Program-made: the position numbers and the translations under genes | Part shown: positions 4,572 through 25,480 of the stretch, one piece after another | Position numbering within the stretch: position 1 is the first letter of the stretch | How the letters are laid out: each line of letters begins with the position of its first letter | Notes under the pieces: model-generated | Databases searched by the model: none | What the model saw: only the letters and a program-made list of their open reading frames with translations | Told to the model about the DNA's origin: nothing | Source of the DNA: an uncultured Prochlorococcus sp. | GTDB lineage: Bacteria; Cyanobacteriota; Cyanobacteriia; PCC-6307; Cyanobiaceae | Length of the DNA stretch: 33,824 bases | Direction: 5' to 3' | Assembly: GCA_902574425.1 (NCBI GenBank) | Contig: CACGNA010000011.1 | Coordinates: 1-33,824 of the forward strand

Positions 4572-5750
4572 TTAATAATATTTAGAAATTGCTTCTTGGA
4601 GCCTATTTAGCCCATCTTTAATTTTAGCTTCTGAGGCTGCACAAGAAATTCTAATACATTCATCAACCCCAAAAGCTTTTCCAGGTACAACAACTAATCC
4701 ATAATCTTGAAGAACTTTTTTGCAAAAATCAACAGAAGTAATTGAGGAGTCGGGTAATCTTGGAAATGCGTAAAATGCGCCGTTAGGTTCTTGAATATAA
4801 ATCCCATTTATATTTTTAAGGCCCTCATAGAGAAGACTTCTTCTTTGATCATAATGACTATTAATCGTTGAGAAAAACTCATTATTTATTTTTAAAGCCT
4901 CCAAAGCACCTTTTTGAACAAAAGAACAAACATTACTTGTACTTTGACTTTGTAATGCTGAGGATGCTTTGATCACATCTTTGGCCCCTACTAAATAACC
5001 TATTCTCCAGCCAGTCATTGCCCATCCTTTTGCAAACCCATTTATTATAAAAATTCTCTCTTTTAAGTCATTTGCTAATGTAGATAAACTGTAGTGATTA
5101 AATTCTTTTTTTAGTATTAGTTCGTAAATCTCATCAGAAAGAATATTGATATTTGGATTTTCTCTGGCTATTTCAGCAATTTGCAATAACTCTTCCTTTG
5201 ACATTACTCTCCCAGTCGGGTTATTAGGAGAATTAATAATTATAAATTTAGTTTTTGAGGAGATTTTAGACTCCAAATCTTTTATATCTATTTTAAATCC
5301 ATCTTCAGCAGAAGAATTTGTAATGATTGGCTTTCCACCAGCCAACCTAACCATCTGGGGATAACTTAGCCAGTATGGAGCAGGTATGATAACCTCGTCT
5401 CCATCATTTAATAAAACCTGGAAAAGATTATATATTGCTTGTTTAGCTCCATTTGTGACCATTACATTTTCAAATTCAATATTTAAATTGTTTTGAATTT
5501 GAAGTTTATTTGCAATTGCTTTTCGGAGATCTAAATTTCCCGCTGCAGGACCGTATTTTGTAAATCCATCAAATATAGCTTTACTTGTGGCTTCTATAAC
5601 TTCTTTTGGGGCATTAAAATCAGGTTCCCCAGCACTTAAATTGCAAATATCTACTCCCTCTGTAGCTAATTGATTCGCTTTGGCGCTTATCTGGAGTGTA
5701 AGAGAAGGCTCAATAGAAAGTGCCCGCTTAGATAAATTTACTTTACTCAT
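4572..5750 (-). CDS. aspC: Class I/II aminotransferase (aspartate aminotransferase-like), PLP-dependent
   Basis: PLP-dependent transaminase, most like the bacterial aspartate (or aspartate/prephenate) aminotransferases that link glutamate and oxaloacetate pools. It shows the substrate-side ICNLSAGEPDF, VTNGAKQAIYNLF, NSPNNPTGRV, the PLP-ring Asp in LSDEIYE, the Schiff-base Lys in INGFAKGWAMTGWRIGY, and the carboxylate Arg near ECIRISCA. The ATG at 5750 (MSKVNLSKRAL) is chosen over a TTG six codons upstream because the family begins here. About 392 aa is normal. It may be cotranscribed with phnDCE immediately downstream, although the functions are unrelated. Confidence 0.88.
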   Translation of the reverse strand: MSKVNLSKRALSIEPSLTLQISAKANQLATEGVDICNLSAGEPDFNAPKEVIEATSKAIFDGFTKYGPAAGNLDLRKAIANKLQIQNNLNIEFENVMVTNGAKQAIYNLFQVLLNDGDEVIIPAPYWLSYPQMVRLAGGKPIITNSSAEDGFKIDIKDLESKISSKTKFIIINSPNNPTGRVMSKEELLQIAEIARENPNINILSDEIYELILKKEFNHYSLSTLANDLKERIFIINGFAKGWAMTGWRIGYLVGAKDVIKASSALQSQSTSNVCSFVQKGALEALKINNEFFSTINSHYDQRRSLLYEGLKNINGIYIQEPNGAFYAFPRLPDSSITSVDFCKKVLQDYGLVVVPGKAFGVDECIRISCAASEAKIKDGLNRLQEAISKYY

Positions 5751-15357: not shown

Positions 15358-15380
15358 AAAAATAAGTTAGAGTTAATATA

Positions 15381-15552
15381 CTGGATCTTTGGTTAAGTTC
15401 TTCTTTATGTGCTCTGATCTGACTCTCTTTCGACATGAGGAGACTGTCGTGATGCGGTAGTAAACCGATCTTGTAATCGGAAACGAAAGCCCACTTTGAA
15501 TCCTCTTCTGGCTTTTCCAGGTCGATGCAGCAGAGAACTGACGGGGATCCGG
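15381..15552 (+). ncRNA. ssrS: 6S RNA (SsaA/SsrS-type RNA polymerase-binding RNA)
   Basis: Small RNA that mimics an open promoter and sequesters sigma70-type RNA polymerase. It sits just after purK, the known cyanobacterial position. The ends pair as a closing stem (15381-15387 CTGGATC with 15546-15552 GATCCGG). A second helix pairs 15396-15401 with 15534-15539, and internal hairpins form at 15431-15449 (CGACA/TGTCG) and 15465-15480 (CCGAT/ATCGG). The stretch is clearly richer in GC than its surroundings and has no coding frame. A TAATAT at 15374-15379 may be its -10 box, so the exact 5' end is uncertain by a few bases. Confidence 0.8.
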
Positions 15553-15556
15553 TAAA

Positions 15557-15603
15557 CCTCTTAAAAACCTGTTATATCAACGGTTTTTGAGGGGTCTTTT
15601 TAT
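15557..15603 (+). terminator. Rho-independent terminator after 6S RNA
   Basis: The stem pairs CCTCTTAAAAACC (15557-15569) with GGTTTTTGAGGGG (15582-15594) through G-U-tolerant pairing across a loop of about 12 bases, and is followed by TCTTTTTATT. It lies five bases past the 6S closing stem. Confidence 0.75.
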
Positions 15604-15747: not shown

Positions 15748-15918
15748 TCAACTCCAATCTGGAGGTTCTGGAATATCTTGTTCTTCCTCTTCTGCCTCTT
15801 TTCTTTGCATCTCTTTAAATATTCCTATTCGAATCTTTGTGAAGTACAGAAGTTGACTATATTCATTATCGTTCCATTTAGAGATGGGAGTTCCATCCCT
15901 ATGGATAATATTGAAATG
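15748..15918 (-). pseudogene. Small conserved-looking ORF without start codon (possible gene remnant)
   Basis: On the minus strand a 56-codon open frame ends in a protein-like, acidic tail: NNEYSQLL-type segment, IRIGIFKEMQRKEAEEEE, then DIPEPPDWS and TGA at 15748. Composition and codon use look coding, and the frame reads HRDGTPISKWND before that. No ATG, GTG or TTG exists until a Met near residue 35, and a TGA at 15919-15921 closes it upstream. I read it as a small cyanobacterial hypothetical that has lost its 5' end. An ATT start is the alternative. A plus-strand ORF over the same bases looks like its shadow. Confidence 0.4.
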
Positions 15919-16047
15919 TCAGATCTCATGTTAGAAGAATATTCCAAAAAAGATGTACAAGAAAATTAAAGGCTCAATAATCTATTGAGTCGATAGTCAA
16001 TCATCTCTTAATTTTGATGAGGGTAAATAATTTTTTTTCCAAAATAC

Positions 16048-16077
16048 TTGACGATCCATTTCCAATGCATTTATATT
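16048..16077 (+). promoter_or_regulatory. Promoter of DUF1651 locus, copy 1
   Basis: TTGACG at 16048-16053, an 18-base spacer, and TATATT at 16072-16077. The 19 bases at 16068-16086, spanning the -10 region and the likely start of transcription, are identical to those at 18515-18533 before the paralog, and the -35 hexamer is identical too. Confidence 0.6.
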
Positions 16078-16102
16078 AATAGTACAGATGTATTACTAAG
16101 GA

Positions 16103-16402
16103 ATGACTTTAGGAGGAGCTAATGTTTGGACTAATTTTTCTTACGGTTATCGTAATGAGTCCCCAAGTGGTTGGTTGCTTAGTCCAGACCGCAGCAGATT
16201 AATTTTATTTACAAGGAATAAAAAATCTCCAAGAAATAGTATGAGAATTTTTGCTCATACATATTATGCAAATGATCTTGGTGAGCCAATGGCAATTAAA
16301 TCATCAACACAAATGTATTTGGATAATGCTTGGGATAAATGGCATGACCTTCAATTAGAAGGTTGGACTTTTGAAGAACTTGAATTACCTGAATCAGTAT
16401 GA
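16103..16402 (+). CDS. DUF1651 family protein, copy 1
   Basis: Small protein of DUF1651, a family confined to Prochlorococcus and marine Synechococcus, function unknown. It shows the family's PSGWLLSP near residue 22, a basic stretch after LILFTRN, and the C-terminal pattern of a Trp-rich helix (AWDKWHDLQLEGW). It is paralogous to 18548-18838 (shared ANV-T-F, P-GWL, HT-Y-N-LGEP and W). Its ATG at 16103 has only AAGG two bases upstream, a poor ribosome site. A strong Shine-Dalgarno inside it serves the nested ORF at 16122. Its stop overlaps the next start (ATGA at 16399). Confidence 0.75.
   Translation: MTLGGANVWTNFSYGYRNESPSGWLLSPDRSRLILFTRNKKSPRNSMRIFAHTYYANDLGEPMAIKSSTQMYLDNAWDKWHDLQLEGWTFEELELPESV
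16122..16202 (+). CDS. Nested 26-aa ORF inside DUF1651 copy 1 (candidate overlapping gene)
   Basis: In the +1 frame of the DUF1651 gene, 26 codons encode a hydrophobic peptide opening MFGLIF and reaching PQVVGCL, then VQTAAD and TAA. AGGAGG at 16111-16116 lies five bases before its ATG, an excellent ribosome site. The paralogous locus has an ORF of the same length at the same offset (see 18567). Eleven of the first 20 residues are identical and the other nine are hydrophobic or Ser/Thr exchanges. VVGC resembles a lipobox, although no basic residue precedes the hydrophobic stretch. The function is unknown. Confidence 0.5.
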   Translation: MFGLIFLTVIVMSPQVVGCLVQTAAD

Positions 16403-16539
16403 CTAACTTAAATCCAATCAAAAAGAAATTATCAAAAGTAGATAGAAAGATATCTATGCAAGACCCATCAAAATTATTAGCAGAATTTTTTAATGGTGTT
16501 GTCATTGAACTTGATGAAGAATATAAATATGACTCATAA
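16399..16539 (+). CDS. Small hypothetical protein (46 aa)
   Basis: ORF whose ATG overlaps the DUF1651 stop (ATGA), implying translational coupling. It has a basic N-terminus (NPIKKKLSKVDRKIS) followed by DPSKLLAEFFNGVVIELDEEY and an acidic end. There is no membrane span. I recognise no family. Its 3' end overlaps the next small gene by 11 bases in another frame. Confidence 0.55.
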   Translation: MTNLNPIKKKLSKVDRKISMQDPSKLLAEFFNGVVIELDEEYKYDS

Positions 16540-16681
16540 AGAATTAATAGATCAAGTTTCCGCAAATTTATTTAAACAAAGTGGAAAGTTAGAAAGCAGA
16601 AGATCTTGGTTGGCAATGAGAAATTATCTTGAACAATTAGACAGCGAACAACTTAAATCCATGCTTAAGGACCACGGATGA
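16529..16681 (+). CDS. Small hypothetical protein (50 aa)
   Basis: Soluble, probably helical: THKELIDQVSANLFKQSGK, then RRSWLAMRNYLEQL and SEQLKSMLKDHG. ATG at 16529 is preferred over a TTG-type start at 16493 because it fits the overlapping layout of the three-gene cluster (16103, 16399, 16529), which is probably translated in relay. I recognise no family. The neighbours downstream are on the opposite strand. Confidence 0.6.
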   Translation: MTHKELIDQVSANLFKQSGKLESRRSWLAMRNYLEQLDSEQLKSMLKDHG

Positions 16682-16691
16682 TTTAAAAACT

Positions 16692-16805
16692 TTATTTAGT
16701 TTTTATTTTTTTCTTAATTCTCAGAAAACCGTAAGTTGCAAAGCCAACCAAAAACATATCCAAGTAAATATGCCAAGTAGGAAAAATCTGGTGTATTAAT
16801 TCCAT
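16692..16805 (-). CDS. Small single-span membrane protein (37 aa)
   Basis: Reads MELIHQIFPTWHIYLDMF, then the hydrophobic LVGFATYGFL and a strongly basic tail (RIKKKIKTK), i.e. one membrane span with the C-terminus in the cytoplasm. Its ATG overlaps the stop of the ligase-like gene (TAATG at 16803-16807), so it is the last gene of that minus-strand operon. Family unknown. Confidence 0.5.
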   Translation of the reverse strand: MELIHQIFPTWHIYLDMFLVGFATYGFLRIKKKIKTK

Positions 16806-17554
16806 TAACGTTTTATTGCCACTTGCCAATAAGGATAATCTAAATTTGATTTTTCTCTAATCAATTGTAATTTTCTAGAATTTATTTTTACTACTATTCC
16901 ATCTGTTGGATATTTACTAAAAAGCTTCCCTTCTAGCCATTGTTTTCTAAATACTTCAACTTGGCTCGTAAAGTTGCATGAAATATCTTGAGGGATTGTA
17001 AAACCAAGCTTTGAAAGACTCTTTTTGGACTCATATTGGTTAAGTGTTGAATTAAGTATTTGAAATGCGCAGAAGCTAAGACTTTCAGAAAATCCTTCTT
17101 TAGCTCTTAGAAATCCAGAAGCGATTTTCTGGGAGATATTTGGACTTTGGTTGGGTGCATATAATTCACCTCTAACTTGAAGAACTCCTCGTAAAGGGAG
17201 ATTATTGGGAATGTCTTGGACTTTAATAAGTTTACTTGTAACGTCTATCCCTTTTCGTGAAATTGCTTTCTCCAATATTCCATCCCTATATTGCAAAGCA
17301 ACAGCACAACCATCAATTTTGGGTTCAATTAATAATCTGGTATCTACTAATAATCCTTTCAAAAATTCATCTATTGAATCCTTTTCTAATGAAGGTAAAA
17401 CTAGTTTATTTTTCTTTTTAAAGTAATCACAACTAGGGTTTGTTCTCAATAAATTTTTTTCAAGTTGGTCGAACTGCTTATCAGAGATTAAAGCATTACC
17501 ATTTCTATAATTATCGTCATACCATTCAATTCGTTCTTCTAAATAAGTCTTCAT
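16805..17554 (-). CDS. NAD+-dependent DNA ligase-like protein, adenylation domain only
   Basis: 249-aa protein matching only the N-terminal part of LigA. A domain-Ia-like segment (WYDDNYRNGNALISDKQFDQL, residues about 11-31) is the NMN-handling part. The nucleotidyltransferase core follows: EPKIDG with adenylated Lys79, VRGELYAP (motif III), DGIVVKIN (IV) and the terminal VAIKR near motif V. The OB fold, zinc finger, HhH and BRCT domains of a LigA of about 670 aa are absent. The ORF ends exactly after motif V and is followed by a coupled small gene, so it looks like a stable short form rather than a fresh break. It may adenylate itself without sealing DNA, or use a partner. Confidence 0.78.
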   Translation of the reverse strand: MKTYLEERIEWYDDNYRNGNALISDKQFDQLEKNLLRTNPSCDYFKKKNKLVLPSLEKDSIDEFLKGLLVDTRLLIEPKIDGCAVALQYRDGILEKAISRKGIDVTSKLIKVQDIPNNLPLRGVLQVRGELYAPNQSPNISQKIASGFLRAKEGFSESLSFCAFQILNSTLNQYESKKSLSKLGFTIPQDISCNFTSQVEVFRKQWLEGKLFSKYPTDGIVVKINSRKLQLIREKSNLDYPYWQVAIKR

Positions 17555-17761
17555 TTAATACGATGGCTTAAGTTTTTGGTCAGGTATCCAACTTGGTTTA
17601 TCTATAATCCATTTTTCTCTATCTTCATATTTAACAGTCCATAAAAGAAATGAAGAAATTTCTTTTAGAGTTATGCCAACCAAATATCTTGTTTTTGGAC
17701 TTATTGATACAAATCCAAATAATAATATTAATAAAAAAAGTTTAATCATACCTTTAATCAT
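17555..17761 (-). CDS. Small single-span membrane protein (68 aa)
   Basis: N-terminal hydrophobic span (IKLFLLILLFGFVSI), then a soluble part with EDREKWIIDKPSWIPDQ. Its TAA directly abuts the ATG of the ligase-like gene with no spacer, so both are on one transcript. Either M1 or M5 could be the start. Family unknown. Confidence 0.5.
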   Translation of the reverse strand: MIKGMIKLFLLILLFGFVSISPKTRYLVGITLKEISSFLLWTVKYEDREKWIIDKPSWIPDQKLKPSY

Positions 17762-17792
17762 TTAAAAACTCAGCGTAATTTTTGCGAACTTT

Positions 17793-18050
17793 TTAATTAA
17801 TGCAATTCTTATACCCTTCAATCTTTGCTAGTTCATCAATATTCAAACCTGTTTCTTCTAGTAAAGTTTCTCCTATATCGTCATTATTAAATTTAGTTAA
17901 AGCTCCTTTATTAGAGTACTTAATACATTGGTTTTTGTATTTTGCTTCTTTGATAACAGGTGATAAATAAAAACCAAACAAGATGATAAAAGCCCCATAG
18001 GTTACAACTTTTCTATGGTTTTTCCACCATTCATAAAATTTATTGGACAC
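17793..18050 (-). CDS. Hypothetical single-span membrane protein (85 aa)
   Basis: Short cytosolic N-terminus (SNKFYEWWKNHRK), one span (VVTYGAFIILFGFYLSPVI), then an exported soluble part with two Cys (QCIKYSNKGAL and EGYKNCIN) that could form a disulfide. GTG start at 18050. It lies 31 bases upstream of the ligase-linked operon on the same strand. Family unknown. Confidence 0.55.
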   Translation of the reverse strand: MSNKFYEWWKNHRKVVTYGAFIILFGFYLSPVIKEAKYKNQCIKYSNKGALTKFNNDDIGETLLEETGLNIDELAKIEGYKNCIN

Positions 18051-18119
18051 GAAAAATAAATGACTTTTTTCTATTTTAAATTGACTGTCAACAAATTACT
18101 TTAGAAATTTAAGGATTGG

Positions 18120-18356
18120 TTAATTTATTGTTTTTTCATTAATAGATTTAACCCAAGAATAATATCTTGATTTTCTAATCCTTTGCTCTTTCGAGACTAA
18201 TCTATCCGCAGATTCTAGGGGTGATTCTCCTTTCTCAACTTTTGTTGTCATAGAAATACCAAAACCTTTTGCTTCAATTTTTGCAATGCCACCCTCTAAA
18301 AAAAATAAAAAAGACCAACCTTTGTTCCATCCTAAATAGAAGGGATTTCGATACAT
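18120..18356 (-). CDS. Hypothetical protein (78 aa)
   Basis: Begins YRNPFYLGWNKGWSFLFFLEGGIAKIEAKG and continues with a polar, basic half (VSKEQRIRKSRYYSWVKSI). The aromatic start is weakly hydrophobic, and no clear membrane span is evident. ATG at 18356. Family unknown; same strand as the genes at 16.7-18.05 kb. Confidence 0.5.
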   Translation of the reverse strand: MYRNPFYLGWNKGWSFLFFLEGGIAKIEAKGFGISMTTKVEKGESPLESADRLVSKEQRIRKSRYYSWVKSINEKTIN

Positions 18357-18381
18357 TGAATTCTTTTGGAGATACTCTTTA

Positions 18382-18480
18382 ATGATATTTTCCTTTTCAA
18401 GGAGTTACTTGTATTCACTATTACCAAATAAGAAGTTTACGGCTGATTATTTCTGGAAAGTAATTTTAGTATTTAAATAA
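18382..18480 (+). CDS. Possible small ORF (32 aa), weak
   Basis: Open frame MIFSFSRSYLYSLLPNKKF followed by TADYFWKVILVFK. AAGGAG at 18399-18404 would place a ribosome site before the internal TTG at 18410. There is no other support, and it may be chance. Confidence 0.2.
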   Translation: MIFSFSRSYLYSLLPNKKFTADYFWKVILVFK

Positions 18481-18495
18481 TTACCAGAGGAATAC

Positions 18496-18524
18496 TTGAC
18501 GCCTAAGAGTAGTACATTTATATT
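18496..18524 (+). promoter_or_regulatory. Promoter of DUF1651 locus, copy 2
   Basis: TTGACG at 18496-18501, a 17-base spacer, and TATATT at 18519-18524. Hexamers and the downstream AATAGTACA are identical to copy 1 (16048-16086), while the spacer differs, as expected for a maintained promoter. Confidence 0.62.
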
Positions 18525-18547
18525 AATAGTACAACCGTATTATCTTC

Positions 18548-18838
18548 ATGACTTCAGGAGTCGCTAATGTTCGGACTTATTTTTATCGTAGCAGCCTTAT
18601 TGACGCCCCAACTGGCTGGTTGTTTAACCAAAAAAGTGGGTTATTGATTTTTTTTGAGAGTCATAAGAAATCTGTATCTAATAACTTAAAAGTATACACT
18701 CACCTTTTTTATTCAAATGAATTAGGTGAACCAGCCCAGCTTAAAAATTCAAGACTTCATTCTATTGAGTGTGCTTATGAAACATGGAATGAATTAATTT
18801 CAGGAGGTTGGCAAATTGTTACTAATAAATTCCAGTAA
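18548..18838 (+). CDS. DUF1651 family protein, copy 2
   Basis: 96-aa paralog of 16103-16402. Shared blocks are ANV-T-F at the start, PTGWLF near residue 22, THLFYSNELGEPAQLK in the middle, and AYETWNELISGGW near the end. The function of DUF1651 is unknown. Unlike copy 1, it is followed by no coupled genes. The start ATG at 18548 lacks a good Shine-Dalgarno, whereas AGGAG at 18556-18560 serves the nested ORF at 18567. An independent promoter precedes it. Confidence 0.75.
   Translation: MTSGVANVRTYFYRSSLIDAPTGWLFNQKSGLLIFFESHKKSVSNNLKVYTHLFYSNELGEPAQLKNSRLHSIECAYETWNELISGGWQIVTNKFQ
18567..18647 (+). CDS. Nested 26-aa ORF inside DUF1651 copy 2 (candidate overlapping gene)
   Basis: Again +1 frame, again starting 19 bases after the DUF1651 ATG, and again 26 codons: MFGLIFIVAALLTPQLAGCL, then TKKVGY and TGA. 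LAGC is a good lipobox match. Third-position and conservative changes dominate against copy 1 (TTT/TTC, CTA/CTT, TGC/TGT, L/I, V/A, S/T), while the host frame changes radically over the same bases (Y/R, R/L, N/I). Confidence 0.5.
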   Translation: MFGLIFIVAALLTPQLAGCLTKKVGY

Positions 18839-19100
18839 TCATGATTAAGGTAAATCCGTAAAAATGGGAATATCTAAAACGAAAACGTACAAAGATTTTT
18901 ATTAATTGCAATCAATTTCGCTAAAGCACTACAGAAACTTTTACTATTGTCTTGATTTGTCTAAGATACGAAAAATGTATACCACAGTGTAATCATTTAC
19001 TTAAAGGTTGAGAGTATTGGCAAAATAATAGGACTATATTTTCTCCTGAAGCTTCGTAATTATTCTTCAATTAAATTTTTCTAGGCATAGATATTTAATT

Positions 19101-24945: not shown

Positions 24946-25480
24946 ATAGTTTAAAAAATTAAATTTAAAAAAATGACATATCGAATGCTACTGATCTTCC
25001 AAACAAAATGTGGATATATTCTTTGAAAAAAGAAAATATTTTATTTTGCACATAGAAGATATAATTTAATCAACATATTGTGGAAAACCCTGTTGAAAAG
25101 CACTAAAAAAGTGGATAACTCTCGGGGATCATTATCAAAACAAGCTTTTCTCGAGTAAATTCTAAGTATTAATACCTCATTAAGAAAAGTTTAAATATAG
25201 TTTAAAATTCACCATAATCTATTGTTATAACAGTGGGATCATTCTTTTTTTAATTAAAAAAAGGATCTTTTCTAGAAACTAATTTTGAAAAAATGTTAAA
25301 AATTATATTTTTGAATGATGTATCAAATTTACAATTAAAGTTAAGAAAAATAAAAGGAAACTTGAATTTTTGAAAATTTGTCTCATCTGTTTAAATTAAG
25401 TCTTGATTCGGTTTTCTTTATGGAAATATTCATCAAAGCTGAAATTAAACAAATATATTAAATTAAATTAATAATTCAAA
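24946..25480. other. Gene-free gap of 535 bases with DnaA-box-like sites and a palindrome
   Basis: No ORF of note on either strand. Near-matches to the DnaA box TGTGGATAA occur at 25079-25087 (TGTGGAAAA) and 25110-25118 (AGTGGATAA), with a weaker one at 25091-25099. An 18-base perfect palindrome TTTTTTTAATTAAAAAAA spans 25245-25262, flanked by GGATC on both sides, and might act as a bidirectional terminator. Confidence 0.35.

Follow-up and report, generated by a model that had tools for sequence, protein, structure and literature searches.

A putative LexA-controlled hydrophobic peptide nested in the +1 frame of DUF1651 genes in Prochlorococcus

The window analysed here is a 33,824-nt stretch of DNA from an uncultured Prochlorococcus sp. 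(GenBank assembly GCA_902574425.1, contig CACGNA010000011.1) and carries two genes of the DUF1651 family on its + strand. Copy 1 (16103..16402, 99 aa) and copy 2 (18548..18838, 96 aa) match Pfam PF07864 with E values of 2e-10 and 8.6e-14, and at 41.4 and 52.2 bits against a cut-off of 22 both host frames belong to the family. The initial annotation of this DNA had proposed that each gene contains, 19 nt after its own ATG, a 26-codon ORF in the +1 frame with its own Shine-Dalgarno sequence, and the coordinates of both ORFs were confirmed. The nested ORF of copy 1, MFGLIFLTVIVMSPQVVGCLVQTAAD (16122..16202, + strand), lies behind AGGAGG at 16111..16116, the last base of which is 5 nt before the nested ATG at 16122. 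That of copy 2, MFGLIFIVAALLTPQLAGCLTKKVGY (18567..18647, + strand), follows AGGAG at 18556..18560, with the last base 6 nt before the ATG at 18567. Each ORF comprises 26 codons and a stop, and the two peptides do share 11 identical residues among their first 20. It is also fair to say, as had been claimed, that the host ATGs are without a comparable site, AAGGA being placed directly against the ATG at 16103 with no spacer between.

A few further features accompany the two copies. Between them, on the − strand, a 249-aa gene (16805-17554) contains only the adenylation domain of NAD-dependent DNA ligase (PF01653, E 7e-19). Two small + strand ORFs at 16399-16539 (46 aa) and 16493-16681 (62 aa) overlap the end of copy 1 and one another in an arrangement like that of a coupled operon; neither has a Pfam match. 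Rfam identified 6S RNA at 15375-15559 and Yfr17 at 24979-25235, both on the + strand.

A 22-nt motif representing the nested start, with up to three mismatches allowed, was found in 133 of the 151 genomes of the genus, and among the matches listed many genomes have two copies about 2.45 kb apart. Because the reversed pattern, used as a control, gave only 0-1 matches per strand and genome, the occurrence of the motif is beyond chance. Across the family, the pattern was present in 23 of 300 genomes, all of them among the 24 sampled from this genus, and it was absent from the 276 genomes that represent 58 other genera. With a MED4-type protein as query, DUF1651 itself was detected at E <= 1e-5 in 54 of 131 family genomes, 49 of which lie outside the genus. 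Since the alignments from outside the genus begin at query residue 13 or later, the N-terminal extension that bears the overlap is a feature of the genus in this sample. Two gapped patterns used for further loci matched 10 and 14 of 266 genomes, the latter figure including some chance matches.

The collected loci form four classes, namely copy 1 (125 rows, among them the misfiled locus L134), copy 2 (106 rows), a MED4 type (18 rows) and a fourth class (4 rows). In a tree of the DUF1651 part, built from 15, 15, 15 and 4 sequences of these classes together with three other DUF1651 proteins, copy 2 and the MED4 type grouped together (support 0.85), with two sequences of the latter nested next to copy 2; the other grouping was of copy 1 and the fourth class (support 0.66). 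Genome G015 contains a copy-1-like gene beside an hli-like gene, a neighbour for which Pfam gave no match; we take this copy-1-like gene to be the probable counterpart of PMM0819, which lies beside an hli gene in MED4. The MED4-type gene of the same genome stands after purK and the 6S RNA, which is the position published for PMM0684 of MED4 (PMC5490813, PMC2518516). As the 6S RNA also follows purK in the window, this is the same locus as that of PMM0684. The DUF1651 genes of the window and PMM0684 and PMM0819 of MED4 are very probably orthologues. In another locus (L025), which is cut by a contig end, the nested start of a copy-1-like gene reads AAG.

GGAG is kept in 123 of the 125 copy-1 rows and in 106 of the 106 copy-2 rows. 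On the copy-2 tree no events were counted in GGAG or in the nested ATG, although nt 11 and nt 20 are host third positions; nt 5, 8, 14 and 17, which are the remaining third positions within host codons 2-6, had 14, 4, 30 and 4 events. Copy 2 also conserves its host ATG (3 events in 3 sites), and the conservation of this codon alongside the nested start signals suggests that both starts are probably used. By the rule of our script, the nested ORF was broken in 4 of 125 copy-1 rows and in none of the 106 copy-2 and 18 MED4-type rows, and a broken host frame with an intact nested ORF occurred in 3 of the 106 copy-2 rows, in 3 of the 18 MED4-type rows and in L134; these counts of intactness lean upward for both frames, since the loci were gathered partly by host similarity and partly by the nested-start motif, and the collecting script required a loose match (at most 7 substitutions) to GGAG and the nested start. 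The fourth class keeps the ORF, with GGAG in only one of its four rows. Loss of the nested ORF in other strains had been put forward as grounds for refuting the proposal; in copy 2 the nested ORF is intact in all 106 kept loci, and in two copy-2 loci outside the row sets (L071 and L072) the overlap carries indels that bring the nested start into frame with DUF1651. These two loci may represent sequencing errors or decayed genes. In L071, at about 5480-5560, a longer C run fuses the nested start and DUF1651 into one ORF, which is either a real variant or a sequencing error.

In the geometry of the overlap, host codon positions 1, 2 and 3 correspond to nested positions 3, 1 and 2. Substitution events were counted on trees built without the overlap, and mutation rates were taken from host-synonymous changes downstream; the events are parsimony counts on single-gene trees without a recombination model and are not fully independent of one another. 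The selection tests used 123 copy-1, 106 copy-2 and 17 MED4-type sequences. Left out of the counts were L134 (a sequence of copy 2 sorted into copy 1 on account of its broken host frame), L198 (for its low score), rows identical to others, loci truncated by a contig end, and loci lacking a GW-type motif in the host frame (L071, L072 and L068). In copy 2, nested codons 2-14 had 65, 24 and 15 events at host positions 1, 2 and 3, compared with 124, 81 and 206 downstream of the overlap. Over nested codons 2-26 the counts were 84, 34 and 43, and the comparison of positions 1 and 3 with the downstream region gave a Fisher p of 4e-8. The MED4 type behaved similarly (24, 8 and 23 events, Fisher p 0.0017). 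Copy 1, with 26, 14 and 90 events, did not differ from its downstream region (Fisher p 0.46), and the positional contrast between copy 1 and copy 2 was pronounced (p 5e-12).

The same picture emerged when events were classed by their effect in each frame. In codons 2-14 of copy 2, changes that are synonymous in the host frame and nonsynonymous in the nested frame were seen 15 times against 59.5 expected, whereas those of the opposite kind were close to expectation (65 seen, 70.8 expected). The nested frame of copy 2 is constrained and the host N-terminus is free in these codons, which is the inverse of copy 1, where the corresponding figures were 22 seen against 54.6 expected (0.40) and 4 seen against 74.6 expected. 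The MED4-type sister class, which includes PMM0684, shows both patterns (7 seen, 18.8 expected, and 12 seen, 24.6 expected). In codons 15-26, changes of the host-synonymous, nested-nonsynonymous kind reached 0.55 of expectation in copy 2 (p 0.0017), 0.88 in the MED4 type and about 0.94 in copy 1 (55 seen, 58.2 expected), so that the second half of the nested ORF has weak protection, and in copy 2 only. In copy 1 the host frame is strongly constrained and dominant; the first half of the nested ORF is constrained in both frames and its second half is free, the nested frame showing no constraint of its own beyond the suppressed host-synonymous change in the first 14 or so codons. An earlier version of the test gave a copy-1 ratio of 1.48 for this kind of change over the overlap, as against 0.40 (codons 2-14) and 0.94 (codons 15-26) with the later rates, and the conclusion for copy 1 therefore depends on the rate model.

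Omega was also estimated in windows of 39 nt at the beginning of the overlap, and the values were consistent with these counts. For copy 2, the MED4 type and copy 1, respectively, omega was 0.23, 0.30 and 2.09 in the nested frame, 2.14, 0.61 and 0.11 in the host frame, and 1.42, 1.35 and 5.73 in the third frame. Downstream of the overlap, copy 2 had +1-frame values from 0.63 to 5.48. Tree-free allele counts agreed with the omega results. The initial interpretation is supported in part: nested-frame selection is clear, mainly in copy 2 and its MED4-type relatives. The copy at 16103, for which selection had been claimed, does not show it over the whole nested frame; there, host-synonymous change is suppressed in codons 2-14 and not in codons 15-26. 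The opposite constraint on the two frames in two duplicates provides an internal control, with evidence at population scale. Overall, the pattern of substitution makes it very probable that the nested peptide exists, mainly in the lineage of 18548 and PMM0684.

It had also been suggested that translation from the strong site shifts frame into DUF1651. The nested start would then be the true N-terminus of a DUF1651 isoform, about 14 codons being read before a −1 shift into the host frame, and such a shift would agree with a nested constraint that peaks in codons 2-14 and is weak or lacking beyond them, as well as with the indels of L071 and L072 that put the nested start in frame with DUF1651. 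However, the conserved host ATG of copy 2 would be needless if ribosomes shifted, a conserved slippery run is lacking at the border (copy 2 varies at position 57 and copy 1 at position 59, and MED4 has TCACCC there), and codons 15-26 of copy 2 are still under nested constraint; moreover, the two indel loci may be erroneous or decayed. We consider frameshifting improbable.

We find it similarly hard to credit that DUF1651 is the sole product and that the overlap is kept as a translation-initiation region or nucleotide signal, the nested ORF being incidental. Copy 1 would fit such a signal, in that its host-synonymous change is low just past the start and its +1 frame shows no nested-frame periodicity, but in copy 2 and the MED4 type the changes fall by preference on the third positions of nested codons, where they alter the host protein. 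Folding z scores of −0.70 and 0.88 gave no RNA structure signal, and RNA structure was rejected as the cause of conservation. There is also little to commend the idea that the nested ORF is a regulatory decoy whose strong initiation site competes with, or times, DUF1651 translation, the peptide sequence being of minor importance: a strong Shine-Dalgarno sequence at the nested start and none at the host start is what a decoy would have, yet nested codons 2-14 of copy 2 and the MED4 type are constrained at the amino-acid level. A translated nested peptide remains our preferred reading.

The best 19-residue hydropathy mean of the peptide is 2.06-2.17 in the window copies and 1.75 in the MED4 type, compared with at most 1.49 for ten control +1-frame ORFs. 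Judged by hydropathy, the product is predicted to be hydrophobic enough for one membrane span, as in peptides of the DinQ/TisB type, and T-rich host third positions alone would probably make +1 products partly hydrophobic. The mean number of Lys or Arg in residues 20-26 is 2.0 for copy 2, 1.67 for the MED4 type and 0.03 for copy 1, and the near-absence of these residues from the copy-1 C-terminus fits a loss of peptide function there. A lipobox at residues 18-19, as initially proposed, did not stand up. Residue 19 is Cys in 100 and Tyr in 6 copy-2 sequences, and Cys in 111, Tyr in 10 and Phe in 4 copy-1 sequences; it is Tyr in 17 and Cys in one of the 18 MED4-type sequences, and Phe in all four of the fourth class. 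We rejected the lipoprotein reading, as Cys is not kept at this position.

A consensus promoter scan of 15900-18950 identified, on the + strand, TTGACG, 18 nt, TATATT at 16048..16077 upstream of copy 1 (10/12 consensus matches), which is among the two best sites in this region, and TTGACG, 17 nt, TATATT at 18496..18524 upstream of copy 2; the 11 promoter-like sites found there are not above chance, 15.1 being expected from shuffles. A LexA-like box sits after the −10 element of this TTGACG-N17/18-TATATT promoter. The copy-1 box, AGTACAGATGTATT (16081..16094, + strand), matches [AG]GTACN3[ATG]GTA[CT]T and is the sole match in the window on both strands. In copy 2 the box, AGTACAACCGTATT (18528..18541, + strand), is one mismatch from the pattern in this genome, and 95 of the 106 orthologous rows fit it, 73 of these with AGTACAACTGTATT. 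Relative to the host ATG, the copy-1 box begins or lies within −20 to −23 in 121 of 125 rows, and the position is likewise fixed in the 95 matching copy-2 rows, in 17 of 18 MED4-type rows and in two of the four rows of the fourth class, the chance of a match being about 4e-5 to 1.4e-4 per 50-nt stretch. The half-sites are quiet; the spacer and flanks vary.

A search of the whole source genome located RGTACNNNTGTAYT at six positions (seven strand matches, against 3.6 expected by composition and 0.96 by a first-order Markov model), and its reversed form has no match there. Four of the positions precede lexA, recA, copy 1 and a further DUF1651 gene; one is close to a 76-aa ORF, and the last is close to a peptidase M48 gene. 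Because this genome-wide excess is modest, the fixed place of the box across loci is the stronger evidence. The box of the other DUF1651 gene is AGTACAAATGTATT (L266, box at 1501); that gene is without a nested ORF and lies near an hli-like ORF. Another box, AGTACGTATGTATT (L271, box at 1501), overlaps the start region of the 76-aa ORF, which has no Pfam match. Of 25 DUF1651 loci from other genera, 23 were readable, and one of these showed a LexA-like box in the 200 nt upstream, at about −135. The accessible text of Li et al. (PMC3091678) gives GGTACAAATGTATT for MED4 lexA and AGTACACATGTACT for MED4 recA, and that of PMC2921402 gives TAGTACA-N2-TGTACTA. A box of the lexA/recA type is present at the promoter of both copies, as in the LexA regulon of marine cyanobacteria, and the best reading, predicted from the box pattern, is that both are under LexA control.

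Nested-frame selection, the conserved Shine-Dalgarno sequence and nested ATG, and the LexA-like box are properties of the aligned sequences, and from them we infer translation of the peptide, LexA binding, a membrane location and a physiological role. We propose that a DUF1651 gene acquired a genus-specific 5′ module consisting of a promoter repressed by LexA together with an N-terminal extension, about 20 codons long, which would also encode, in the +1 frame and behind its own Shine-Dalgarno sequence, a 26-residue hydrophobic single-span peptide (MFGLIF...TP...). LexA would be inactivated by DNA damage, and perhaps by phage attack, and one mRNA would be translated twice, with DUF1651 made from the upstream ATG that has no Shine-Dalgarno sequence and the peptide made from the nested one. 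At the membrane the peptide may act in the manner of DinQ and TisB, possibly as a stress peptide. After duplication the frames would have been reweighted, copy 1 serving mainly the DUF1651 frame and copy 2 and PMM0684 the peptide frame. That a LexA-controlled single-span peptide with DinQ/TisB-like action is dual-coded in the genus-specific DUF1651 extension is, in our judgement, somewhat probable. The fuller proposal of a toxin-like membrane peptide in the phage response of one of the most abundant phototrophs, with duplicates subfunctionalised between reading frames, is put forward only tentatively.

Few nested genes on the same strand are well supported in bacteria, and tisB is not known to be nested in a conserved protein gene. 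The available text on DinQ of Escherichia coli, with AgrA/AgrB (PMC3567139), describes an SOS-regulated toxic single-transmembrane peptide with antisense RNAs. The features shared here are the LexA-like box, the predicted one-span peptide and an antisense RNA published for PMM0684; unlike dinQ, the present ORF is nested within a protein gene and read in the +1 frame, and the likeness drawn here is one of features. TisB/IstR-1 of E. coli, as described in the accessible part of PMC8145889, likewise involves a LexA-controlled small membrane peptide, as proposed here. According to the sections available, PMM0684 and PMM0819 rise in phage infection (PMC5490813), during which arrays show PMM0684 and the antisense RNA asMED4_07401 rising together (PMC2518516); those sections make no mention of a nested ORF or of a LexA box for the two genes. 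Among the matches listed for the literature on Prochlorococcus with LexA/SOS, with type I toxins and with LexA and small proteins, and on cyanobacterial overlapping genes, titles and abstract openings gave no description of the nested ORF; in the literature searched, DUF1651 appears in one paper and the string MFGLIF in none. If the proposal is correct, an unannotated peptide would be added to the probable SOS response of Prochlorococcus, the rise of DUF1651 genes during phage infection would have a reason, and PMM0684 expression data would report on two overlapping products.

A phage origin was also considered and rejected, the query P0002 having no match at E 1e-3 when compared with 50,697 phage records; since a DUF1651 domain is reported for coliphage ECBP5 in the accessible part of PMC5490813, this search misses distant members. 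A scan of IMG/VR with P0001 returned one locus, L150, which is copy-1-like (92% identity), lies near the end of a 42-kb contig and is perhaps host DNA filed as viral.
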